Below are positions 20,651 through 37,122 of a stretch of DNA of 58,163 nucleotides, in pieces. This DNA is from a virus. The DNA is taken from IMG/VR virus record IMGVR_UViG_3300048044_000016, positions 1 through 58,163 of that record. One strand, written 5' to 3'. Position numbers and translations under genes: made by a program. The notes below the pieces were generated by a model, which was not told the DNA's origin, did not search any database, and saw only the letters and a list, made by a program, of their open reading frames with translations. Positions within the stretch are counted from its first letter, which is position 1. Each line of letters begins with the position of its first letter.

Positions 20651-21400
20651 CTAGTTGCCGCCCAGGTCAATCTTGAAGTTGGGGTCATTGATCGACTTCG
20701 CAAACCCGCTGCCAGGGGTGCACATCAGGCCAAAAGCGCGGGCAGTTGCCTGCTCAGAGCTGCGCTGGTCGTTCGGGTCGGCTTCGGAAAGCGACTTGTT
20801 GATCATCCGATTGAAGTCGGCCTTTCCGTCGCTGGCCGGGAACACATCTCCGGTCGAACTGGCAACGAACAACTTCGGGCGACGGCCAGCAGAGGGCTGA
20901 TTCTCGATCACAGACATCTGACCCTTCAGGAAAGCGTTGTCGGCGATCAGTGGGGCGGTAGCTTCGGCCACAGCGGCCTTGACCATCGTCGCAATCGCAG
21001 CCGCCGAATAGGGCGAGTCTCCAGCGCCGCGGAAGGTGTTGCCCTCAACTTCGCCTTCAGTCATGCGCCGGGGGGAAAGCTCTTCCACGTTCTCCGAAGC
21101 AGGCTCTTCGCCCAAGTCAGTTTCCGCCTTCTCTCCATCCCATCCAGTCATGGCCTTGCCGAGTGCAGCGTGAGCCAGTTCGTGATGGTCGGCAATGTCG
21201 TTCATGTGTCCTGAAAGCGCCGTCAAGTGCTTCTTGAACTCATCGCCACCGTCGGCCGCCTTGCCCATGCACTTGTGAAGGGCTTCAAGCTCATCGACCG
21301 CTTTGCCGTGGGAGGCCGATGCCTTCTTGATGTGGTCATCGGCTTTCTTGATGGCCGCCTTATGCATTGCCCCGAAACGCTTCTGAAGGTCAGTTGCCAT
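20651..21400 (-). CDS. Nested in-frame scaffold protein (internal start in protease gene)
   Basis: Within the protease gene an AAAGGAGAG ribosome binding site lies about ten bases before an in-frame ATG at 21400, giving a 249-aa product beginning MATDLQKRFGAMHKAAIKKA. The product is helical and rich in Ala, Lys and His, as scaffolds are. This is the lambda C/Nu3 arrangement, in which a scaffold is translated from inside the protease gene. The RBS is as strong as those of independent genes here; expression is inferred. Confidence 0.55.
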   Translation of the reverse strand: MATDLQKRFGAMHKAAIKKADDHIKKASASHGKAVDELEALHKCMGKAADGGDEFKKHLTALSGHMNDIADHHELAHAALGKAMTGWDGEKAETDLGEEPASENVEELSPRRMTEGEVEGNTFRGAGDSPYSAAAIATMVKAAVAEATAPLIADNAFLKGQMSVIENQPSAGRRPKLFVASSTGDVFPASDGKADFNRMINKSLSEADPNDQRSSEQATARAFGLMCTPGSGFAKSINDPNFKIDLGGN

Positions 21401-22285
21401 GATGGTGCTCTCCTTTTGCTTGGTGCTGCCCGGCCAGTCGGCGGGTAGAAGATGTGTTGCGTTCAGCGCTTTCGCGCGAGAGATGATGTGAGCCTTGGCT
21501 TTCTCAGGGTCCGATGCGCGGCCAAAGGCTTTGACGGCGTTCTCAAGGTCCGAGACGTTCGCAATCGGATAGCTACCATCAGGAAGGGCGATGCCTTGGG
21601 ATGCGAGATGTTTGCGCTGCTTGTCGCTGAACTCGCGCTTCTCAAAGTCCGTATCGGCCAGAATCTTGTTCAGTTCCGTCATCTCGTCGGCGGTAAGTTC
21701 ATCGGACTCAACAGGACTCGGAACCGCTTCAGGAGCGGCCTTTGCGAGCTCAGGAAGTGCAATCTTGCCCATTCCGAGAATCGTTCGAAACGTGTCAAGC
21801 GCTTTTTCCATCAAAGTCTCGTTACTGGTTTGATTCTCCATCGACCCTCCAAAGGCGAGTCCCCCGGCAATCTTCACGATGTCGATGCGGCAGTCGGAGT
21901 TCGCTGGCCGGTCGACGAGGCTGATCTCTCGCAAGGAAAGCGCCTTGACCACATCGCCAACCTTCTCCAGCTTGGAACCGCCGATGCTGAAGCCCTTGTA
22001 GACGCCTTCCTTGCACAGTTTCCATGCGGCGGGATCAACGATCTTGGCGCCGATGTAGAGTCCTTTGGCGTCAATGTGGGCCTCTTTGGTCACGCCAACG
22101 GCATTGTTGGTGTGCATGGTCCTGATGTTCGCCCACTTCATGTAGTCGGGGAGGGCGGCCTTGATGGCGTCCAGCGGAACAATCTCCCCTTGCAGGTCCT
22201 TTGATGGTGTTGAGGCGTAACCCCAGACCATTCCGCTCTGCGCGTCCACCTTTTCAATCGGGAGAAATACGCTGAAATCGTCCAT
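20651..22285 (-). CDS. XkdF-like prohead protease fused to scaffold
   Basis: A 544-aa protein. Residues 1-145 match the XkdF-type prohead serine protease domain ('VWGYASTPSKDLQGEIV', 'DYMKWANIRTMHTNNAVGVT', 'DPAAWKLCKEGVYKGFSIGG', 'LREISLVDRPAN'). Residues ~195-290 have a linker resembling small Lys/Ala-rich head-associated domains ('KRKHLASQGIALPDGS'). The C-terminal half is a His/Lys/Ala-rich, highly helical scaffold-like region. An internal strong RBS and ATG (see 20651-21400) suggests a separate scaffold from the same frame. Its promoter-leader module L2 lies directly upstream. Confidence 0.8.
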   Translation of the reverse strand: MDDFSVFLPIEKVDAQSGMVWGYASTPSKDLQGEIVPLDAIKAALPDYMKWANIRTMHTNNAVGVTKEAHIDAKGLYIGAKIVDPAAWKLCKEGVYKGFSIGGSKLEKVGDVVKALSLREISLVDRPANSDCRIDIVKIAGGLAFGGSMENQTSNETLMEKALDTFRTILGMGKIALPELAKAAPEAVPSPVESDELTADEMTELNKILADTDFEKREFSDKQRKHLASQGIALPDGSYPIANVSDLENAVKAFGRASDPEKAKAHIISRAKALNATHLLPADWPGSTKQKESTIMATDLQKRFGAMHKAAIKKADDHIKKASASHGKAVDELEALHKCMGKAADGGDEFKKHLTALSGHMNDIADHHELAHAALGKAMTGWDGEKAETDLGEEPASENVEELSPRRMTEGEVEGNTFRGAGDSPYSAAAIATMVKAAVAEATAPLIADNAFLKGQMSVIENQPSAGRRPKLFVASSTGDVFPASDGKADFNRMINKSLSEADPNDQRSSEQATARAFGLMCTPGSGFAKSINDPNFKIDLGGN

Positions 22286-23988: not shown

Positions 23989-24146
23989 TTGAGTTTCCCT
24001 TCGATTCGCGCCAGTGTCAGAAGGATTGACCCTATGGCGATGCAGATAAAGCATTGAGTGGGTTCTGTCTTCCAGATGTCAAGAGCCTTGAAAACGCAGA
24101 CGATTCCCAACATAGACGTCGCCGAATTCCAGAAAGGAAATCTCAT
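23985..24146 (-). CDS. Small membrane protein, 53 aa
   Basis: Starts MRFPFWNSATSMLGIVCVFK at an ATG overlapping the upstream stop as ATGA, with GGAGG just before it, and contains two hydrophobic stretches (residues 8-20 and 31-47, 'CFICIAIGSILLTLAR'). The upstream in-frame extension is a shadow of the neighbouring gene. A small two-helix membrane protein in the head-gene region; function unknown. Confidence 0.5.
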   Translation of the reverse strand: MRFPFWNSATSMLGIVCVFKALDIWKTEPTQCFICIAIGSILLTLARIEGKLK

Positions 24147-24736
24147 CCCTCCACCCACTTCCCCAACCCCTTCGCTACAGCGATGGTCGCCAGGGTCATG
24201 CTGCGCACCGTGGCGATGGTGCCGATGCTCACCACTCGCCCTTGGCTTTCCAGTTCGCGCATGATCTGCGCCTGGTTCCAGTCGGTGTGGAGCATCACCA
24301 GCGCGCGGACGGCATCGGTTGCGGTGTGCCTGGGGTTCAGAGCGTGCGGCGAGTCCTGATCTCCCAGAGGAACTGTACCGAGAGCGGCCTCGGCTTGCGC
24401 GGGTGCGTCCGCGGGCCATCCGGCATCCACCACGGCATCGATGATGGGATCGGCGGGCGCGGCGCCCTTGTAACTATCATTGCTGACAGGACCATCATGG
24501 CCGTCGAGGATGCCGAATCCGGGGCAATGCTCGGGGTCCTGATGGTGCTTCACTCGGATAGCTTGGGCGTTGTACCACTCGCGCGCCGGTTCGCCCAGTT
24601 TGAACCAGGCTTCATCGGAAGCCTTCGATACGGCCAGCACTAGGCGCCGCAAGTGATGTGCGTCAGGCTCGCCCTCAGCTTGTGGCAAGAACTCTGTGCC
24701 GGCCGCTGCCAGCAGTTCACTGTAGATAGTGCTCAA
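24143..24736 (-). CDS. Hypothetical protein with C-terminal HTH-like segment
   Basis: A 197-aa protein from a TTG (24736) that overlaps the upstream stop (TTGA) with AGGAG nine bases before it. The N-terminal half ('HHLRRLVLAVSKASDEAWFK', 'AREWYNAQAIR') is helical, the middle is Pro/Ala/Asp-rich, and the last 50 residues ('HTDWNQAQIMRELESQGRVV', 'IGTIATVRSMTLATIAVAKG') read like a winged helix-turn-helix. It might be a phage-specific regulator in this operon; not recognised as a family. Confidence 0.55.
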   Translation of the reverse strand: MSTIYSELLAAAGTEFLPQAEGEPDAHHLRRLVLAVSKASDEAWFKLGEPAREWYNAQAIRVKHHQDPEHCPGFGILDGHDGPVSNDSYKGAAPADPIIDAVVDAGWPADAPAQAEAALGTVPLGDQDSPHALNPRHTATDAVRALVMLHTDWNQAQIMRELESQGRVVSIGTIATVRSMTLATIAVAKGLGKWVEG

Positions 24737-24903
24737 GATTGCATCTCCTGTTTCTTCCTGCCGATCAGGCTTACGAGCAGGTTGCATTGGGTTGGGGTGA
24801 ATGTTTCGTGTCCCGGCCAGTTGTCCTCAATCAAGTTCAGGACCTCAATCATCGGCACGTGGGTCTTCTCGTAGACCTCGTCGATCATCTCGGGGAGCGT
24901 CAC
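24733..24903 (-). CDS. Small hypothetical protein, 56 aa
   Basis: A 56-aa product (VTLPEMIDEVYEKTHVPMIE then VLNLIEDNWPGHETFTPTQC...) from a GTG overlapping the preceding stop (GTGA), ending in a TTGA overlap with the next gene. AGGA lies nine bases upstream. Acidic N-terminal half and a 'NLLVSLIGRKKQEM' helix at the end. Function unknown. Confidence 0.5.
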   Translation of the reverse strand: MTLPEMIDEVYEKTHVPMIEVLNLIEDNWPGHETFTPTQCNLLVSLIGRKKQEMQS

Positions 24904-25076
24904 GCGGGTCCTACTTTCATGATGATTGCCGCCACCAAAACCCGCGCTTGAGCATAAGTCATCTCAATGCGACCTCCTCCCAATGTTAGGACTAAGCTCC
25001 CAATCTGACCATCTGGAGAAACCGCAGTGGGGTGAAAGGTCGCATCAAGTCCTCTATCTGTTTTTTTAGACTTCAT
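24900..25076 (-). CDS. Small hypothetical protein, 58 aa
   Basis: Starts MKSKKTDRGLDATFHPTAVS at an ATG overlapping the upstream stop (ATGA) with GAGG five bases before. Contains 'GSLVLTLGGGRIEMTYAQAR' then a hydrophobic 'VLVAAIIMKV'. Part of the coupled small-gene chain. No family recognised. Confidence 0.5.
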   Translation of the reverse strand: MKSKKTDRGLDATFHPTAVSPDGQIGSLVLTLGGGRIEMTYAQARVLVAAIIMKVGPA

Positions 25077-25294
25077 ACGCGCCTCGGTTCTGCCGGCGGG
25101 TGAGTCCCGTACTTGGCGATGAACTCGTCTGCCATGCCAAAAGGGCAAGATTCTCCATGCACTTCTGGAGAGTCATCTGGGGTTATTTCCCCACACAAGC
25201 AGCAATATCCCTCTGCTGAACGGTCATCGTCTGTCACCTCGTGCAGAATCCTCACAATTGCTTCGGCGTCTGCTTGTCTGTTGGTTTGGTACAC
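25073..25294 (-). CDS. Small zinc-knuckle protein, 73 aa
   Basis: GTG start at 25294, five bases after AAAGGAG and just after the previous stop. 'ADAEAIVRILHEVTDDDRSA' is followed by 'GYCCLCGEITPDDSPEVHGE' and 'SCPFGM', giving a Cys/His set (CCLC ... H ... C) that could bind zinc. Ends in an ATGA overlap with the next gene. Function unknown. Confidence 0.5.
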   Translation of the reverse strand: MYQTNRQADAEAIVRILHEVTDDDRSAEGYCCLCGEITPDDSPEVHGESCPFGMADEFIAKYGTHPPAEPRRV

Positions 25295-25296
25295 GT

Positions 25297-25545
25297 CTAC
25301 TCCTTTGAGGCTGCCAATGCAGCGCTGCGGTGGCTTGCATAGCCACTCCAAGTTATTCCATCCACTCCGAACACTTCCATGTGGGTGAGGTCCTTTGGAA
25401 CCAACGTGGCCTTCTGAGTCCTGTTGAGGACGGTTATCAGAGGCAGGATGCCCAACCGGCTTGCACATGCCGGGCACTGCTCTGGAGAGTCGCCGATCGC
25501 GTCACAATCAGCGCATAGGTAGGCATTGCGGAGGTTAACGTGCAT
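25297..25545 (-). CDS. Small zinc-ribbon protein, 82 aa
   Basis: Begins MHVNLRNAYLCADCDAIGDS and continues 'PEQCPACASRLG', a clear CxxC...CxxC zinc ribbon near the N-terminus. The remainder ('LPLITVLNRTQKATLVPKDL') is strand-rich. It overlaps the preceding gene by 11 bases. One of several tiny Cys-rich proteins in this genome. Confidence 0.6.
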   Translation of the reverse strand: MHVNLRNAYLCADCDAIGDSPEQCPACASRLGILPLITVLNRTQKATLVPKDLTHMEVFGVDGITWSGYASHRSAALAASKE

Positions 25546-25762
25546 GGGCCACCAGCCAATGTGCCAGGAGCATGATGGGGTGATGCAACTCCCATAAGCC
25601 CCAGATTACGAGTCCTGCCAGAACCTCAAGGGCCATCGCAGTGCCCGCTCCTACGAGTGCATCCTCGCCCAGCACTTCTCCGTCAGGCGTATGCAGTTTG
25701 CCGTTCTCGTCATATCCGTACTTGCTCATCACTTCATTGGTAATTCGTTCTGTTTCCGTCAT
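25535..25762 (-). CDS. Small membrane protein, 75 aa; first gene of the leftward chain
   Basis: Starts MTETERITNEVMSKYGYDEN at an ATG seven bases after AGAGG; a longer form would extend into the promoter. A transmembrane stretch lies near the C-terminus ('AMALEVLAGLVIWGLWELHH', then 'MLLAHWLVA'). It is the first gene after the divergent control region 25763-25963 and probably heads a leftward operon. Confidence 0.55.
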   Translation of the reverse strand: MTETERITNEVMSKYGYDENGKLHTPDGEVLGEDALVGAGTAMALEVLAGLVIWGLWELHHPIMLLAHWLVAHAR

Positions 25763-25790
25763 CCAGAGACCTCTTTCTGAAACTGGGATT

Positions 25791-25819
25791 ATTAAACCAT
25801 CACTCTCTTGATTTATCAA
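25791..25819 (-). promoter_or_regulatory. Leftward promoter with operator-like motif in its -35
   Basis: On the minus strand TTGATA (25819-25814), 17-base spacer, TTTAAT (25796-25791). The -35 lies inside CTTGATAAATCAAG (25820-25807), whose CTTGAT/ATCAAG arms are a perfect inverted repeat, and the -10 overlaps GGTTTAATAATC, another copy of the dispersed motif. A protein binding this motif would block the promoter of the small-gene operon starting at 25762. Confidence 0.55.
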
Positions 25820-25885
25820 GCGCTATTTTCGATAAGAGTCCTGATTCCCGCTTTGGGAATCTTCGCAGGTTATTAAACTTTTCTG

Positions 25886-25913
25886 TTGACATGCGTACCA
25901 GGGGTGCTATTCT
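25886..25913 (+). promoter_or_regulatory. Rightward promoter flanked by two motif copies
   Basis: TTGACA (25886-25891), 16-base spacer, TATTCT (25908-25913). Copies of the near-palindromic motif flank it: GGTTATTAAAC just upstream (25869-25879) and GGTTTATCAAC just downstream (25916-25926). It precedes the 27-aa ORF at 25964 with AAGGAG. With the leftward promoter at 25791-25819 it forms a divergent, co-regulated control region. Confidence 0.65.
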
Positions 25914-25963
25914 CGGTTTATCAACTAATTAGTTGTTGTCAATCAACCACACAAGGAGCAGAA

Positions 25964-26047
25964 ATGGACATCTACGGACGTTGGGACTGGCGCATTCTGG
26001 CTGTGCTGATTATCGGCGGATTGATTGCAGGGTGGCTGATAGGCTGA
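25964..26047 (+). CDS. Micropeptide, single transmembrane helix (27 aa)
   Basis: MDIYGRWDWRILAVLIIGGL then IAGWLIG: a charged/aromatic start followed by one hydrophobic helix. AAGGAG lies five bases before the ATG and a consensus promoter lies about 50 bases upstream. Proteins of this size are rarely annotated, but promoter, RBS and composition agree. It could act on the membrane early after infection; inference. Confidence 0.5.
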   Translation: MDIYGRWDWRILAVLIIGGLIAGWLIG

Positions 26048-26111
26048 AGCTACTACTCAAACGCAGTCGCAACCGAGCCGGGCGGTATATCCCGGCACAA
26101 GAAAGGGAACC

Positions 26112-26366
26112 ATGAACGTCGAACTCGAAATAGCCAAGAAGATCATCGCTGAAATGGAAGACACGCCAGACAAGTCGCCATCGGCCAAGAAGCACCGCGC
26201 GCGCATCGCGCTGATCGACTACCGGCTGTTTCTACTCGGCCGCAAGTCATATTCCGACCTCTGCTTAGTCAGGGCGAAGGCGATGCAAAGTGGAGTATCA
26301 GAACAGCAGTTGCTTGACGAGTCCTGCCGTATGCGGCAAATGTGGGCAGCGGGGAAACTACGCTAG
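26112..26366 (+). CDS. Hypothetical helical protein, 84 aa
   Basis: Starts MNVELEIAKKIIAEMEDTPD, basic and helical throughout ('AKKHRARIALIDYRLFLLGR', 'LDESCRMRQMWAAGKL'). RBS GAAAGGGAACC before the ATG. Second gene after the rightward promoter at 25886; its stop overlaps that of the convergent gene 26363-26557. Possibly an early DNA-binding or host-takeover protein; no family recognised. Confidence 0.6.
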   Translation: MNVELEIAKKIIAEMEDTPDKSPSAKKHRARIALIDYRLFLLGRKSYSDLCLVRAKAMQSGVSEQQLLDESCRMRQMWAAGKLR

Positions 26367-26557
26367 AGCTTCCCGCTCTGAAGAGTCTCCCAACGAATTG
26401 GCCGGCCATCCTCGAAGATCAGGATGAACCGGCCATAGAACTTTTCGGGAAGAATCGGCCTCAATGCCATGGCGGCGCGCAGGATCGATTCAGCCGTCAC
26501 CGGCATAGACTTCAGGGCTGACTCCTCGTCAATTCTTATGCGTCCTGTTGCCGCCAT
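26363..26557 (-). CDS. Small hypothetical protein, 64 aa
   Basis: MAATGRIRIDEESALKSMPV followed by 'AESILRAAMALRPILPEKFY'. Abuts the next leftward gene's stop (26558) and converges with 26112-26366. No recognisable domain; kept because it fits tightly in the packaging operon. Confidence 0.5.
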   Translation of the reverse strand: MAATGRIRIDEESALKSMPVTAESILRAAMALRPILPEKFYGRFILIFEDGRPIRWETLQSGKL

Positions 26558-26764
26558 CTATTTCGCCCTTTCCATGCGCTTGCAGTAGCGTCTGAACTTC
26601 AGTACTTTTGAGCGAGTTCCCCAGAATCCCAATTTTATGAACTGCGTTTTGTAAACCCACATGAACCGCCCTCTACGGACATAAGCGATTCTATGTAAGT
26701 TTCGCGTTGGGAAAAGCCCTACCCCCGCAATCTCTGGTGCGCCCCACGTCCCTGTGATCGCCAT
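26558..26764 (-). CDS. Small basic hypothetical protein, 68 aa
   Basis: MAITGTWGAPEIAGVGLFPT then a very basic C-terminal half ('IAYVRRGRFMWVYKT', 'SKVLKFRRYCKRMERAK'). Start and stop abut neighbouring genes (26557/26765). Function unknown; the charge suggests nucleic-acid contact. Confidence 0.5.
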   Translation of the reverse strand: MAITGTWGAPEIAGVGLFPTRNLHRIAYVRRGRFMWVYKTQFIKLGFWGTRSKVLKFRRYCKRMERAK

Positions 26765-27682
26765 CTATTCCTCGCCCTCTGATTCATCCTCGTCCTTCGA
26801 TTCAGAATACCCCATGCCACAACGATCATTCGGGTGAATAGGCGTGCAATCGTCGCCCGAAGGAAACGGCTCATCTATCGGGATGAGGCCGGCCTCAATG
26901 TTCCCCATGCACTCCTCGCACGCATCCCCTGATCCGATCTGCTGCTTGAACTTCTGCCCTGTGCCCTTGGCAGCCTCATGCTTTCCGTGGTTGTAGGCGT
27001 ACATGCTTTCAGTCCTGCTGATGGTCAGAGCGCGCGCCGCGCTGAAGTCCTCGCTCTGCAAGATGTTGTGCTGGAGTTCGGTTGTCGTCCACCCCTCATC
27101 GACCGATTTGCTTATCAACTCTCGCAGGTTCTCGCGTGTCGTCTCTGTGATGGCGTAGCGGGCATCAGGATTATCAACGATCTCGCCCTTGTCTGTGATG
27201 CGCTTGCCCACCAGATCCGCGCCGCGCTCCCGAGCCATCTGCCGCGCCTCGCCCAAGACTTTGGTCCACATGTCGCTGTCTTCCGCAATGCCGCGGTCAG
27301 TCAAGAACTCTGTGGCGCCGGCGACAGCATCAGTCTCAAGGTAGGGCGTCACCTCTGGAATCAGATCGCCCCAGTCCACCAGAACGTCTATCGTGTCCTG
27401 ATCTTCCGTCTTCTTCTTCGCAGCCTTCGCCAGTTTTTTGACGGTAAGTCCTGATGCCGCTTCTTTTCCTTTGCGCTTGAGGTAGGCCGCTAGTATCTGC
27501 TCCAGTGACTTCCCCGCTTTGCTAAAGGGCGGTCGGATTCCGTCCCGGCCTCCTTCTTCACTGACGCGTTCTTGCCGCTCTGTTGCGCGCCGGGCTTGAC
27601 CGGTTCTGATGCCCCTCCAGAACCGCCCATGGCAGGCTGTGGCATCGCCTTCTGAGCCGCAAGGACCGCCAGCGGCATCCAT
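26765..27682 (-). CDS. Phage head morphogenesis protein (Mu gpF/SPP1 gp7-like); start uncertain
   Basis: The C-terminal ~120 residues match the minor head protein family: 'ELISKSVDEGWTTTELQHNI', 'RALTISRTESMYAYNHGKHE', 'DACEECMGNIEAGLIPI' and 'IHPNDRCGMGY'. It follows the portal gene, as usual. The only in-frame ATG (27682) overlaps the portal gene by 193 bases. A strong AAGGAGG (27549-27555) instead lies about ten bases before an in-frame ATC codon (27538), with no ATG/GTG/TTG nearby, so initiation at ATC or a frameshift from portal is possible. Function assignment is firm, the start is not. Confidence 0.7.
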   Translation of the reverse strand: MDAAGGPCGSEGDATACHGRFWRGIRTGQARRATERQERVSEEGGRDGIRPPFSKAGKSLEQILAAYLKRKGKEAASGLTVKKLAKAAKKKTEDQDTIDVLVDWGDLIPEVTPYLETDAVAGATEFLTDRGIAEDSDMWTKVLGEARQMARERGADLVGKRITDKGEIVDNPDARYAITETTRENLRELISKSVDEGWTTTELQHNILQSEDFSAARALTISRTESMYAYNHGKHEAAKGTGQKFKQQIGSGDACEECMGNIEAGLIPIDEPFPSGDDCTPIHPNDRCGMGYSESKDEDESEGEE

Positions 27683-29417: not shown

Positions 29418-29819
29418 TCACTTTCCTTGGCACATCAGGCACTTGCAGCCCGGTGCGTGGGCTGCACGCGGCGCTCCATGCCAAACTCCAGCGGCAATCG
29501 CCAAATCAGGGAGGATCGCTTCGAGACGGCTGGGGCCGAAGACCTTTTTGGGTGTCCTGACGAGGGCGGTAACCGGCTTGAGCCGCTTCGGGCTGTCTCG
29601 CATTCCACCCATAGCCGTAATCTTGCCGTGAGGATGCGCGTCCATCTCCTTCTGGAATTCGGCAACGGCTTCAGGACTCATCGGCGGTGCCTGAATCACC
29701 GTCGGCTGCTTGAGGTATGCCCCCAGCGCTTCGATGATTGCTTGACTGCGGCTCTTACCTAAAGCATCGATAGCCGCCGCTTGCTCGTCAGGTATGCGGA
29801 TGTTGATGTGTACGCTCAT
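29418..29819 (-). CDS. Ribbon-helix-helix-type DNA-binding protein with Cys-rich tail
   Basis: A 133-aa protein. The N-terminal 42 residues ('MSVHINIRIPDEQAAAIDAL', 'KSRSQAIIEALGAYLKQ') have the strand-helix-helix pattern of CopG/Arc-type repressors. The C-terminus ends 'HAPGCKCLMCQGK', a possible zinc knuckle. It lies next to a cluster of TGTASTACA sites (30005-32424) at the starts of packaging genes and is the obvious candidate to bind them; that pairing is inference. Confidence 0.65.
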   Translation of the reverse strand: MSVHINIRIPDEQAAAIDALGKSRSQAIIEALGAYLKQPTVIQAPPMSPEAVAEFQKEMDAHPHGKITAMGGMRDSPKRLKPVTALVRTPKKVFGPSRLEAILPDLAIAAGVWHGAPRAAHAPGCKCLMCQGK

Positions 29820-31799: not shown

Positions 31800-32227
31800 T
31801 CTCCCTTGAGGATACTATCGAGCACGCTCACCTGCACTGGATTGTCTTTGTCGCCTGCCAGAGTGGTGCGGTCGCCGTACTTCGCCTTGTTCGTACCCTT
31901 CAGCAGGAAGATGAGCAGCGTGTCGCTGTACTCCTGAACGTAGCCCACGCGCTTACCGCCTTGATAGACAGGCTTCTTTACTCCCTCGTAGGCCCGGCGC
32001 TTCGCCTCATCCTCAAGCACTGCCTCGCCCTCCACTTGGGCTTCATCCCACGCCTGCCGAAACTCCTCATCTTGGCGGCGCCACTCGTAAGCGCACGTCT
32101 TCGGGAGACGGCTCAACTTGCACGATTTACTGATGTTCCCTGTAGCCTTCAAAGCCTCAAGGAACTTCGCGCGCGTTTTAGGGAAACGTTTTGAGCGAGG
32201 TGGAGGGCCTTTTACGAGGTTTGCCAT
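31796..32227 (-). CDS. terS: Terminase small subunit
   Basis: A 143-aa protein. An N-terminal basic segment ('VKGPPPRSKRFPKTRAKFLE') leads to an HTH ('ALKATGNISKSCKLSRLPKT', 'YEWRRQDEEFRQAWDEAQ') and a C-terminal oligomerisation part with 'YSDTLLIFLLKGTNKAKYGD', the standard small terminase layout. ATG at 32227; the stretch before it (GGTTTAATAAACTC) contains a copy of the dispersed GTTTATYAAC-type motif. An upstream extension in frame is rejected because it crosses the previous gene. Confidence 0.8.
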   Translation of the reverse strand: MANLVKGPPPRSKRFPKTRAKFLEALKATGNISKSCKLSRLPKTCAYEWRRQDEEFRQAWDEAQVEGEAVLEDEAKRRAYEGVKKPVYQGGKRVGYVQEYSDTLLIFLLKGTNKAKYGDRTTLAGDKDNPVQVSVLDSILKGE

Positions 32228-32234
32228 GAGTTTA

Positions 32235-32429
32235 TTAAACCTTTGTTTTCTTGAAGTCGCAGTGACATCTACATGCCCAACGCGGGTCAGGCCCCATGAA
32301 CACTTCCCACACGTCAATGAGCCAACGGCGTTGACACCGGCAAGAGCATGTCTTCCCGTCACATCGGTGATGGTTCACGTTCAGCGCGCGGATGTCTTCC
32401 ATAGTCAAAGGCTTTTGTAGTACAGCCAT
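32235..32429 (-). CDS. Cys/His-rich small protein, 64 aa
   Basis: MAVLQKPLTMEDIRALNVNH followed by 'HRCDGKTCSCRCQRRWLIDV' and 'PDPRWACRCHCDFKK': seven Cys and several His arranged as two knuckles. TGTACTACA forms codons 2-4. It lies directly upstream of the terminase genes, and its stop overlaps the dispersed motif before terS. Probably a zinc-binding accessory or regulator of packaging; unproven. Confidence 0.55.
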   Translation of the reverse strand: MAVLQKPLTMEDIRALNVNHHRCDGKTCSCRCQRRWLIDVWEVFMGPDPRWACRCHCDFKKTKV

Positions 32430-32599: not shown

Positions 32600-33843
32600 G
32601 ACAGGATTGTGAATTGCGGCCGATTAAAGAAGGCAGCTTCCGGTTTCAATGGCAACTGCGTTAGTTGAGGACTTGCGTCCCAACCTCCGTCTTACATTGC
32701 CTCCACCGGCAGTAGCGCCTATTCCTGACGCCAGTATCCGTAAACCTTCGTCTCGGATATTCTTTGCCGCGTTTATGTCGCGGTCGTGATGCGTGTTGCA
32801 AGATGGGCAGGTCCAAGAGCGTACATCTAACGGCATCTTTCCTGCATGGTTTCCGCACATAGAGCATATTTTGCTGGAAGGAAAGAACCGATCAACCTTT
32901 ACAAATGACTTCCCGGCACGCAACGCTTTATACTCTAAAAACGATATAAATGTTGCCCACCCTGCGTCCGAAACTGCTTTTGCAAGATTGCGGTTGGCCG
33001 TCATTCCCTTCACGTTTAAGTCTTCCGTAACAATGACTTGGTTCTCGTCTACTATCCTACGAGAGACTTTATGAAGGTAATCACAACGCTGGTTTGTGAT
33101 GCGTTCATGAACTCGTGCAACTTGAATACGTGCTTTGTTGCGTGAGCTAGAACCTTTCTTTTTGCGACTCAAATTCTGCTGTTTGCGCTTGAGATTCTTT
33201 TCAGAATTGGCAATGAAACGCGGATTATCGAACTTTGATCCATCGCTAGTGATTGCCAGATGTGTCAATCCTACGTCTACACCGATTGCTTTTCCATCGG
33301 TAGAAACAGGCATCATCGGAATTGAATCATCCGTCAGAATTGATGCGTAGTAGTGGCCACATGGGTTCTTGCTCACCGTGACCGTCTTGATTCTGCCCAC
33401 GATCTCACGATGGATTACAGCTTTAACTTTTCCGACCTTGGGAAGATAAACCTTACTTCCGTCTAACTTCACGCGCTGCGGATATTGAATCGACTGCTTG
33501 CCGTGCTTTGACTTGAAACGAGGATACCGCGCACGCCTCTCAAAGAAGTTCAAGAACGCTGCCGCCAGGTGACGGATAGAAGACTGGAGGGCTTGGGAAT
33601 CGGCATCTTTTAGCCATTCGTATTCCGATTTCAGGCCAGGCAAATAATTAGCCATCGCCACAAACGTCAGACCTCTGCCGGTTTCCTTGTATGCTTTCTG
33701 TGTTTCGCTTAACGCCCAATTCCACGCCCAACGCGCGCATCCAAACTGAAAAGACAGGAGATTCTCTTGTCCCACGGTTGGATAAAGGCGAATTTTGGTC
33801 GTGTTAAGCACTACATTTAATCTTAAGCATGAGAAGATTAAAT
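32600..33843 (-). mobile_element. TnpB-only IS200/IS605-like element (no TnpA)
   Basis: The element carries one intact tnpB gene on the minus strand. At its 5' side is a perfect 12-bp inverted repeat hairpin (33813-33845) like IS200/IS605 left ends, immediately preceded (minus strand) by TTGAC, a sequence of the type used as target/TAM in this family. The 3' boundary is not clear and is placed just after the tnpB stop. The segment is free of the GTCCTGA motif that is dense elsewhere (none between 32558 and 34050), consistent with recent arrival. It lies between dps and packaging genes without breaking either. Confidence 0.65.
32624..33811 (-). CDS. tnpB: TnpB RNA-guided nuclease (OrfB of IS605 family)
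   Basis: A 395-aa, apparently intact TnpB. N-terminal 'LYPTVGQENLLSFQFGCARW' and 'RYPRFKSKHGKQSIQYPQ' are family marks. RuvC catalytic residues are present: Asp in 'AIGVDVGLTHLAI', Glu in 'IVTEDLNVKGM' and Asp in 'NTHHDRDINAAKNI'. A zinc finger ('KICSMCG...WTCPSC') lies between the last two. GTG start at 33811. The guide (omega) RNA should overlap the 3' end of the gene and read into the flank below 32624. These proteins can bias inheritance of the element by cutting empty target sites. Confidence 0.92.
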   Translation of the reverse strand: MLNTTKIRLYPTVGQENLLSFQFGCARWAWNWALSETQKAYKETGRGLTFVAMANYLPGLKSEYEWLKDADSQALQSSIRHLAAAFLNFFERRARYPRFKSKHGKQSIQYPQRVKLDGSKVYLPKVGKVKAVIHREIVGRIKTVTVSKNPCGHYYASILTDDSIPMMPVSTDGKAIGVDVGLTHLAITSDGSKFDNPRFIANSEKNLKRKQQNLSRKKKGSSSRNKARIQVARVHERITNQRCDYLHKVSRRIVDENQVIVTEDLNVKGMTANRNLAKAVSDAGWATFISFLEYKALRAGKSFVKVDRFFPSSKICSMCGNHAGKMPLDVRSWTCPSCNTHHDRDINAAKNIRDEGLRILASGIGATAGGGNVRRRLGRKSSTNAVAIETGSCLL

Positions 33844-34641: not shown

Positions 34642-35006
34642 GCAATCGCTGAGGGATTCAGGAATGTTATGAAAAAGACCCCGACAATTCGGCTTGCTCT
34701 TCTTCAATCGCATTCTTGCGCCTCGGCACGGGTTTCAGTGTAGAGCGCGAATGCTTTTGCTAACTTTTGGCGCATGACCTGGGGAGTGATCCCCATCCCG
34801 CGAAAACGCCGGATCCGGAACAACAGCTAGCTGCTGCCGGTTGGTTCTGTGTAGAGGTTTTCTGTCGATGGGGTAGCGATCATCTTCAGGACTCCAATAG
34901 AGCGCAACTCCTCTGGAATCAAACTTAATAAGCAGGTAAAGTTGCTCTTGAGCAAAAGTTATCTGCGTCCTGATGGGGTTGATAAGTTCTGATAGGGAGA
35001 GGCCCG

Positions 35007-35677: not shown

Positions 35678-36399
35678 ACGAACTTGCATTGAACATCAGG
35701 ACCATGAGCAGCCGGGAGATTGCCGACTTGCTTGAGTCACGTCACGACAAAGTGAAGCAGTCAATCGAGCGGCTGTCCGCAACGCAGTACCAGCCAGACG
35801 GCATCACCATCAAACGACTGCCGATTATCGATCTTCCCCCAATGGGGGAATACCTCGACTCGCTCAATCGTCCAGCTCACGAGTATCGACTCGACAAGCG
35901 GAGCAGCCTCATCGTAGTTGCTCAGTTGAGTCCTGAATTCACCGCGCGCGTGGTGGACCGCTGGCAGCAACTCGAAGCGGAGTTGCAGAAGCCGGCGCTT
36001 CCCGCAACCTACCTGGACGCGCTCAAAGAGCTGGTCGCGGCAGTGGAAAGCAAGCAGGCCCTCGAAGCGGAGAATGGGGTCCTGCGGCCCAAGGCTTTGA
36101 TCGTGGACCAGATCAACCACGCTGAAGGGCTTCACACCATGGCAGAGGCTGCGAAGATCCTCGGCACCGGCAGGACTCGGCTATTTCAATTCTTGCGCCA
36201 CGAGCACATCTTCGATTGCCACAACATGCCACTCCAGCAGTACATCCCCAATCGATTCGTAGTCAAAGAGCGGCCATTCATGCGGGGCGACGAACGCAGT
36301 GTCTATGCCCAGGTCTACGTGACCGGGCGCGGAATTGTCTGGCTTACTCCAAAGGTTGCCGGTTTGGGTCCTGATGGGCAAGGGGAGTTCTTCGAGTAA
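35674..36399 (+). CDS. Rha/KilAC-type phage regulatory protein (antirepressor-like)
   Basis: A 241-aa protein. The N-terminal ~90 residues match phage Rha proteins ('MSSREIADLLESRHDKVKQS', 'YRLDKRSSLIVVAQLSPEFT', 'RVVDRWQQLE'). The C-terminal ~110 residues match the KilA-C/antirepressor domain ('GLHTMAEAAKILGTGRTRLF', 'FLRHEHIFDCHNMPLQQYI', 'VTGRGIVWLTPKVAG'). Such fusions usually act as antirepressors or interfere with host regulation. GTG start at 35674 overlapping the upstream stop. Confidence 0.85.
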   Translation: MNELALNIRTMSSREIADLLESRHDKVKQSIERLSATQYQPDGITIKRLPIIDLPPMGEYLDSLNRPAHEYRLDKRSSLIVVAQLSPEFTARVVDRWQQLEAELQKPALPATYLDALKELVAAVESKQALEAENGVLRPKALIVDQINHAEGLHTMAEAAKILGTGRTRLFQFLRHEHIFDCHNMPLQQYIPNRFVVKERPFMRGDERSVYAQVYVTGRGIVWLTPKVAGLGPDGQGEFFE

Positions 36400-36408
36400 A
36401 CTTTCCGC

Positions 36409-36437
36409 TTGACATTCTCATAACCGTTCGGTTACAG
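36409..36437 (+). promoter_or_regulatory. Promoter with palindromic operator, apparently leaderless transcript
   Basis: TTGACA (36409-36414), 17-base spacer, TTACAG (36432-36437). The spacer and -10 contain the inverted repeat TAACCG-TT-CGGTTA (36421-36434). The next ATG starts at 36446, about where transcription should begin, and no ribosome binding site precedes it, so the HTH gene may be expressed from a leaderless mRNA like lambda cI from PRM. Confidence 0.6.
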
Positions 36438-36445
36438 TTGTGGCC

Positions 36446-36664
36446 ATGAGGAAATACGACAAAGACGACGTGATGCAGGCCCTTCGTGACCTCATTGCAA
36501 AGTCCAACCAGAGCAAAGTGGCAGCAGGACTCGGATACACCCCGCAGTACATCTCTCAAGTCCTGTCGGGCAAGAAGGCGCTGACGTTCGATCTTGCCTT
36601 GCGCGTGGGATTCATTCAACTGCCCGACGCTTACGTGCGGGCACCGAAAGGAAAGGTGAAGTAG
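36446..36664 (+). CDS. Small HTH (XRE/Cro-like) DNA-binding protein
   Basis: A 72-aa protein (ATG at 36446; a GTG at 36440 is also possible). Helix-turn-helix: 'SNQSKVAAGLGYTPQYISQV' followed by 'LSGKKALTFDLALRVGF'. It directly follows a promoter containing the palindrome TAACCGTTCGGTTA, its likely own operator. It may be a Cro/CI-type switch protein or a plasmid-type repressor. Stop overlaps the next gene. Confidence 0.75.
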   Translation: MRKYDKDDVMQALRDLIAKSNQSKVAAGLGYTPQYISQVLSGKKALTFDLALRVGFIQLPDAYVRAPKGKVK

Positions 36665-37122
36665 TGAGAAAGCCTCCGATTGAAGCAGAAGCATTTGCGA
36701 AGTGGTTGCGCGATGAAGGCGCATGTGGCGAGTCCCGCCGGTGGTCAAAAGGTCTGGACCTCTTGACGATATGGAATACTTGCGAACGTGGCGATTGGCT
36801 TGAATGGCTACTGAACACTTGCGGGTATCAATGGACGGCCCCGGCGTGGGAAGCCTACCGGGAGGCGAAGGACACGGCTGAGGAAGCCTACCAGAAGGCG
36901 AAGGCCCCGGCGTGGGAAGCCTACCAGAAGGCGAAGGCCCCGGCGTGGGAAGCCTACCAGGAGGCGACGGCCCCGGCTGAGGAAGCCTACCAGGAGGCGA
37001 CGGCCCCGGCTGAGGAAGCCTACCAGGAGGCGACGGCCCCGGCTGAGGAAGCCTACCGGAAGGCGAAGGCCACGAGTATCCGCGAGATCATCCCATATCC
37101 GTTTGAGAAAGAAGGCAAGTAG
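36664..37122 (+). CDS. Protein with seven tandem 11-residue (hendecad) repeats
   Basis: A 152-aa protein, GTG start overlapping the HTH gene's TAG. The N-terminal 58 residues include 'AKWLRDEGACGESRRWSKGL' and 'TCERGDWLEWLLNTCG', reminiscent of a family annotated as putative immunity proteins. Residues 59-135 are seven 11-residue units of the type APAEEAYQEAT / APAWEAYQKAK. A strict 11-residue period predicts a straight or right-handed coiled coil. Ends 'IREIIPYPFEKEGK'. Function unknown; the repeat number may vary between isolates. Confidence 0.65.
   Translation: MRKPPIEAEAFAKWLRDEGACGESRRWSKGLDLLTIWNTCERGDWLEWLLNTCGYQWTAPAWEAYREAKDTAEEAYQKAKAPAWEAYQKAKAPAWEAYQEATAPAEEAYQEATAPAEEAYQEATAPAEEAYRKAKATSIREIIPYPFEKEGK
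36838..37068 (+). repeat. 33-bp coding minisatellite (7 units)
   Basis: Seven tandem 33-bp units inside the preceding gene; units 5-6 are identical at DNA level, the others differ by a few bases (AAG/ACG and TGG/GAG changes). Each unit encodes 11 residues, so copy-number changes stay in frame. Confidence 0.85.

Follow-up and report, generated by a model that had tools for sequence, protein, structure and literature searches.

In the head-gene cluster of an uncultured tailed phage, represented by a 58,163-nt IMG/VR virus record that was analysed at its full length (hereafter, the window), two predicted sigma-70-type promoters diverge from one another, each accompanied by an inverted pair of the same short element. 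Conservation among related phages establishes this arrangement, in which the spacing inside each promoter unit is fixed and the length of the DNA that joins the units is variable. The content of the cassette of small genes on the rightward side changes between constant borders. That the control DNA remains nearly unchanged while the adjoining small genes are swapped suggests a regulated slot, perhaps one for anti-defence genes. About half of our confidence goes to reading the region as a divergent promoter-operator unit controlling an exchangeable accessory-gene slot within a myovirus head cluster.

The gene content of the phage, which includes tail sheath, baseplate, tape-measure, portal, Mu-F-like protein and terminase, is that of a myovirus, and a replication block with a DnaB-like helicase runs rightward. 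The control region is placed inside the leftward head-gene cluster, with the Mu-F-like head morphogenesis gene upstream (26765-27682, minus strand; PHROG head morphogenesis/portal matches) and the head protease gene (20651-22285) on the other side. The 3 kb surrounding it (24500-27500) gave no DNA match when compared with the phage collection. Elsewhere in the window, a TnpB/OrfB-type IS605 transposase gene was recognised by Pfam at 32624-33811, and none of the 17 relatives compared matched the DNA of about 32.6-33.85 kb. Beside the terminase genes, 33855-34361 matches the PHROG category 'DNA binding protein' and is conserved in most relatives compared; we take its product to be Dps-like. The protein encoded at 36664-37122 contains tandem repeats with a unit like 'APAEEAYQEAT'.

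Direct reading of the sequence confirmed the two promoters and the four motif copies that the earlier note had described. The leftward promoter, PL (25791-25819, minus strand), consists of a -35 TTGATA (25819-25814), 17 nt and a -10 TTTAAT (25796-25791). It was not picked up by the promoter scanner, and it was located in relatives by patterns that include its own hexamers. The rightward promoter, PR (25886-25913, plus strand), consists of TTGACA (25886-25891), 16 nt and TATTCT (25908-25913); its -10 is preceded by TGC, as in an extended -10, and the scanner detects it (10/12). Site 1 (25789-25797), which reads GTTTAATAA on the minus strand, includes the PL -10 TTTAAT and occurs in all 21 distinct control regions. 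Site 2 (25811-25819, plus strand) reads ATTTATCAA in the window and GTTTATCAA in most relatives, and includes the PL -35 on the opposite strand. Site 3 (25870-25878), again GTTTAATAA on the minus strand, is directly upstream of the PR -35, and site 4 (25916-25924, plus strand), with the sequence GTTTATCAA, falls at the expected PR start point and is present in 20 of the 21 distinct regions. Together, the sites are arranged as two inverted pairs of the type TTnnTAAAC...GTTTAnnAA.

Other symmetrical sequences accompany these pairs. The spacer between the promoters contains an extra inverted repeat, GATTCCC-N5-GGGAATC (25842-25860), and similar repeats, some of them imperfect, are found solely in the long-spacer versions (6/21 distinct regions). 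The end of site 4 is overlapped by the dyad AACTAATTAGTT (25923-25934), which takes the form CAAC-N6-GTTG in relatives. The arms CTTGAT/ATCAAG (25807-25812/25815-25820), to which the earlier note had given weight, are exact in the window, but the palindrome is not a conserved feature, its perfect form being limited to the window and a near-identical contig. As an operator, the perfect palindrome 25807-25820 was rejected, since its left arm is missing in relatives. A search for RNA families in 25400-26700 gave none.

When 25763-25963 was shuffled preserving dinucleotides, the observed number of repeated 8-mers was reached in 352 of 5000 shuffles and that of 9-mers in 601 of 5000; because shuffles match the observed repeats this often, the single sequence is by itself not significant. 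Used as a query, the 84-aa protein of the cassette retrieved 16 loci, and a 22-nt pattern spanning site 3 and the -35 retrieved 30 viral contigs. As selection based on the motif was to be avoided, relatives were sought through the Mu-F-like protein, which gave 46 loci. The two-unit arrangement was found in 33 of them, corresponding to 21 distinct sequences. Twelve close relatives without it have merely 0-1053 nt of DNA past the Mu-F-like gene, and in the distant relative L237 (31% identity) the motif is absent from the 4000 nt searched. Sites 1 and 2 are spaced by 22 nt in 21/21 distinct regions and sites 3 and 4 by 46 nt in 20/21, and the units themselves lie 47, 81 or 91 nt apart, measured between sites 1 and 3. 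The one region without the 46-nt spacing is that of the relative G001, which has lost site 4, the PR -10 and the entire cassette. The PR hexamers are also maintained in the distinct regions (TTGACA in 19/20, TATTCT in 18/20).

Nucleotide variation followed the same pattern. Invariant columns accounted for 31 of 36 positions in the four cores versus 19 of the 68 other positions of the two blocks (Fisher p = 1e-8), a figure inflated by the site-locating patterns, which fix most core letters (8/9 at sites 1 and 3, 7/9 at sites 2 and 4). With sites 3 and 4 alone, which contain no promoter hexamers, the values were 16/18 versus 16/55 (p = 1.3e-5). Visual inspection of a pattern-free MAFFT alignment of the loci anchored on the 84-aa protein showed the same conservation. 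What is conserved is the unit TTnnTAAAC...GTTTAnnAA, and it is the comparison of relatives, not the window alone, that shows the sites to exceed chance. The matches listed by a loose paired-motif scan of viral_contigs were mostly due to chance, and the scan was excluded from these counts. In the search for a host prophage, the DNA pattern gave a single match, a Desulfobulbaceae contig with an unrelated bacterial gene context, which was likewise taken as chance.

A possible fifth copy of the motif, GTTTAATAAAC (32230-32240, minus strand), is located just before the start of the terminase small subunit gene (terS) and is kept in the relatives compared, with one letter changed in G001. Exact occurrences of TTATTAAAC fall at the control unit or at terS in 3/3 cases in G002 (all 59,367 nt), 3/3 in G003 (60,000 of 61,059 nt in this count, the entire record in a separate one), 3/4 in the window and 2/5 in G001. 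The early region at 34.4-35.0 kb was considered as a second motif place and discarded, as it holds a partial copy at 34987 and the full unit is absent. Around the terS start, about 35 nt (32208-32242), including the GTTTAATAAAC before the ATG, are near-identical in relatives and the DNA just upstream differs freely; this block looks like a recombination junction.

The cassette borders are the same in 31 of 31 loci, with p75 at the left and p64 followed by the Mu-F-like gene at the right. p75 (25535-25762, minus strand), the first gene of the leftward operon, has a match at this position in all 31 loci with 37-100% identity, and p64 (26363-26557, minus strand) is conserved in the same 31. Between these borders, 22 distinct cassettes were counted, ranging in size from zero, in G001, where the PR remnant is joined to p64 without a cassette, to about 1.68 kb, and carrying from 0 to about six small ORFs according to a simple Shine-Dalgarno rule. 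The first cassette gene of the window (25964-26047, plus strand) encodes a 27-aa peptide with a hydrophobic stretch and the last one (26112-26366, plus strand) an 84-aa protein predicted to be all-helical, with tblastn matches in 11/31 and 13/31 loci, respectively. Some cassette genes are separated by recurrent short linkers: of the 22 distinct cassettes, 11 contain a GCCGGG..CCCGGC block and 8 a TACAGGAAGGAGGGTAGCCTATGG block. At the cassette end there is no terminator-like site, both such sites in 25000-27000 lying elsewhere, and the hairpin before the 84-aa gene is no stronger than those of shuffled sequences (z -0.11).

Of ten cassette proteins compared with Pfam, none scored above the cut-off. 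Of ten compared with PHROGs, among them the 84-aa one, three had matches at E ≤ 0.01, namely to a DNA methyltransferase (L175, E 2e-61), to one family of unknown function and, marginally, to a scaffold family. The L175 methyltransferase gene is inside the cassette, at 302-899 nt counted rightward from site 3 (window orientation). The 84-aa protein matched neither Pfam nor PHROG families, and its all-helical model (pLDDT 73) gave no PDB match at E < 0.001 with Foldseek. Since most cassette proteins are without a family match, their anti-defence role is a guess.

The earlier note had remarked that no repressor gene adjoins the region, which is correct for the immediate neighbours, p75 and the 27-aa peptide. 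A gene with an HTH-like C-terminus (24143-24736, minus strand), one of the candidate regulators named in that note, is nevertheless found about 1 kb into the leftward operon, on the PL side, in every testable relative. Of the 30 loci that carry this gene, 4 have too little upstream DNA to tell, and in all of the other 26 sites 1 and 2 lie 792-1333 nt upstream of it; this linkage is confined to one closely related phage group, so that the co-occurrence may reflect descent. In a comparison of nine genomes, the N-terminal domain of the protein was conserved and its C-terminal domain near-invariant; the hypervariable linker joining them varies strongly in length and sequence even among close relatives. 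Nothing scored above the cut-off when the protein was compared with Pfam; one C-terminal variant gave weak matches to HTH_32 (E 0.0018), HTH_35 (0.0028) and Arg_repressor (0.17), all below the cut-off, and the variant of the window matched HTH_32 alone (E 0.19). The structure model, poor overall (mean pLDDT 49.5), has three C-terminal helices, and its Foldseek matches to the PDB, Fur and ArgR included, were all weak (none at E < 0.001). The 24143-24736 product is the leading candidate for the DNA-binding regulator.

It is rather unlikely that the regulator is instead the 72-aa HTH_3 (Cro-like) protein encoded at 36446-36664, coming from the early operon and acting on PR, perhaps through the dyad AACTAATTAGTT. 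This protein is the sole HTH_3 match found in the window and in each of 3 relatives, and it is 82-97% identical in 17 full-length matches among 18 loci. Its gene has a promoter (36409-36438, plus strand; TTGACA -18- TACAGT) that shares an 18-nt block with PR: allowing up to 3 mismatches, TAAACTTTyCnsTTGACA, a pattern derived from both promoters, occurs in the window only at these two. The PR dyad also has the AACY-N4-RGTT shape seen at the HTH_3 promoter, but this general pattern is frequent by chance, with 5 found in the window versus 2.3 expected. Moreover, the dyad of the HTH_3 promoter, AACCGTTCGGTT (36422-36433; 14/18 rows), differs from TTnnTAAAC, indicating that the HTH_3 protein probably reads another site. 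Within 36397-36446, AACCGTTCGGTT is replaced by other sequence in L186 and L187, whose HTH_3 protein differs too. The RHH-like gene 29418-29819 was rejected as the regulator because of its uneven conservation (33-60% where found; C-terminus only in G001; absent in G009).

The region could also be devoid of any dedicated operator. In that case sites 1 and 2 would simply be the hexamers of PL, an UP-like element would account for site 3 and conservation of the start region for site 4, and the likeness of the four would arise from AT-rich promoter DNA. The letters of sites 1 and 2 do coincide with the -10 and -35, so their conservation is explicable without a repressor, and the window repeats are within the range of the shuffles (352/5000). 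Site 3 could be UP-like because the HTH_3 promoter, where site 4 is absent, has a similar upstream block, TAAACTTT, ahead of its -35. Against this explanation, which we consider unlikely, the 9-mers of sites 1 and 2 recur at sites 3 and 4 as inverted pairs at fixed distances in 20/21 distinct regions; such repetition exceeds the normal sequence needs of a start point.

The geometry reported by the earlier note, divergent promoters overlapped or flanked by several operator-like copies of one motif, holds and is conserved; its interpretation as a master-control or immunity region is not supported. A lambda-type region in which PL and PR form the lysis/lysogeny switch of a temperate phage is very improbable, for although this geometry and a Rha/KilAC antirepressor-like gene in the window (profile matches) would fit it, the region is inside the structural gene cluster, the early operon has separate promoters of its own and lacks the paired motif, alignment of the Mu-F-like protein against genome_contigs found no relative or host prophage, and a Pfam search for this one integrase family, PF00589, was negative in 0/4 genomes, namely the window and three relatives 59-61 kb long.

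Under the reading of a promoter-operator unit that controls an accessory-gene slot, PL would restart the head cluster and PR would drive the cassette. In the course of events that we infer, as regards timing, repression, regulator and anti-defence role alike, PR would be on early after infection, giving rise to small host-takeover or anti-defence proteins. Later, a phage DNA-binding protein, most likely the 24143-24736 product, would fill the four sites, so that PR would be shut through sites 3 and 4, upstream of its -35 and at its start point, and PL would be tuned or damped through sites 1 and 2, at its -10 and -35. As this regulator would be made from the PL operon, PL would be autoregulated. 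The motif copy before the terminase small subunit, if functional, would bring the terminase operon into the circuit. A more far-reaching proposal, possible but on balance doubtful, is that autoregulated anti-defence slots of a new type exist in uncultured myoviruses, and that in these one conserved unit serves any cassette, a new regulator family (near-invariant HTH-like domain, hypervariable linker, second conserved domain) is encoded in the opposite head operon, and head-gene expression switches the accessory genes off.

A constant unit beside a swapping cassette offers a sequence tag for pulling small candidate host-takeover or anti-defence genes from metagenomes; the 22-nt pattern has already retrieved the 30 viral contigs mentioned above. 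Should the HTH-like head-operon protein be the regulator, the region would represent a new arrangement that ties structural-gene expression to accessory-gene shut-off.

We finally compared the region with known systems. Lambda OL/OR and other phage operator regions contain divergent promoters with several operator copies. Unlike OL/OR, the present region has no adjoining repressor gene and is not located between immunity and early genes. A literature search on divergent autoregulated accessory promoters found no matching paper. Small unknown genes and a methyltransferase in one slot recall the anti-defence clusters of mobile elements (PMC7648647); in contrast to these, a single tested cassette gene resembles a known counter-defence type. 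In the morons and regions of genomic plasticity of Mu-like phages (PMC4378225), accessory genes that have a promoter of their own lie between conserved neighbouring genes, and the cassette is similar in both respects. Its absence between the PR remnant and p64 in G001 also fits a moron, as an insertion between genes that adjoin in a related phage. Unlike morons, however, the promoter unit is itself conserved, fixed at the slot and bidirectional, it carries operator-like sites, and no terminator was seen.

The acr loci of Pseudomonas Mu-like phages sit in the head-gene cluster, a location to which that of the present slot can be likened. According to PMC9410906, the core promoter that goes with each Aca family contains a conserved inverted repeat and is repressed by the cognate Aca. 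The slot shares with acr-aca loci exchangeable small genes, a strong promoter and conserved inverted repeats in or beside the core promoter. A conserved inverted repeat is present at the accessory-gene core promoter here, where sites 3 and 4 flank PR (20/21) instead of lying between its -35 and -10. In contrast to acr-aca loci, the cassette operon of the window has no recognised HTH gene at its end, the HTH-like gene being in the opposite, predicted PL-driven operon, and the motif is common to two divergent promoters. As neither an aca-type gene nor a terminator was recognised for the cassette, and no activity is known, we have filed the slot under none of acr-aca locus, moron or anti-defence cluster; we infer that it is best read as an autoregulated accessory-gene slot resembling acr-aca loci.
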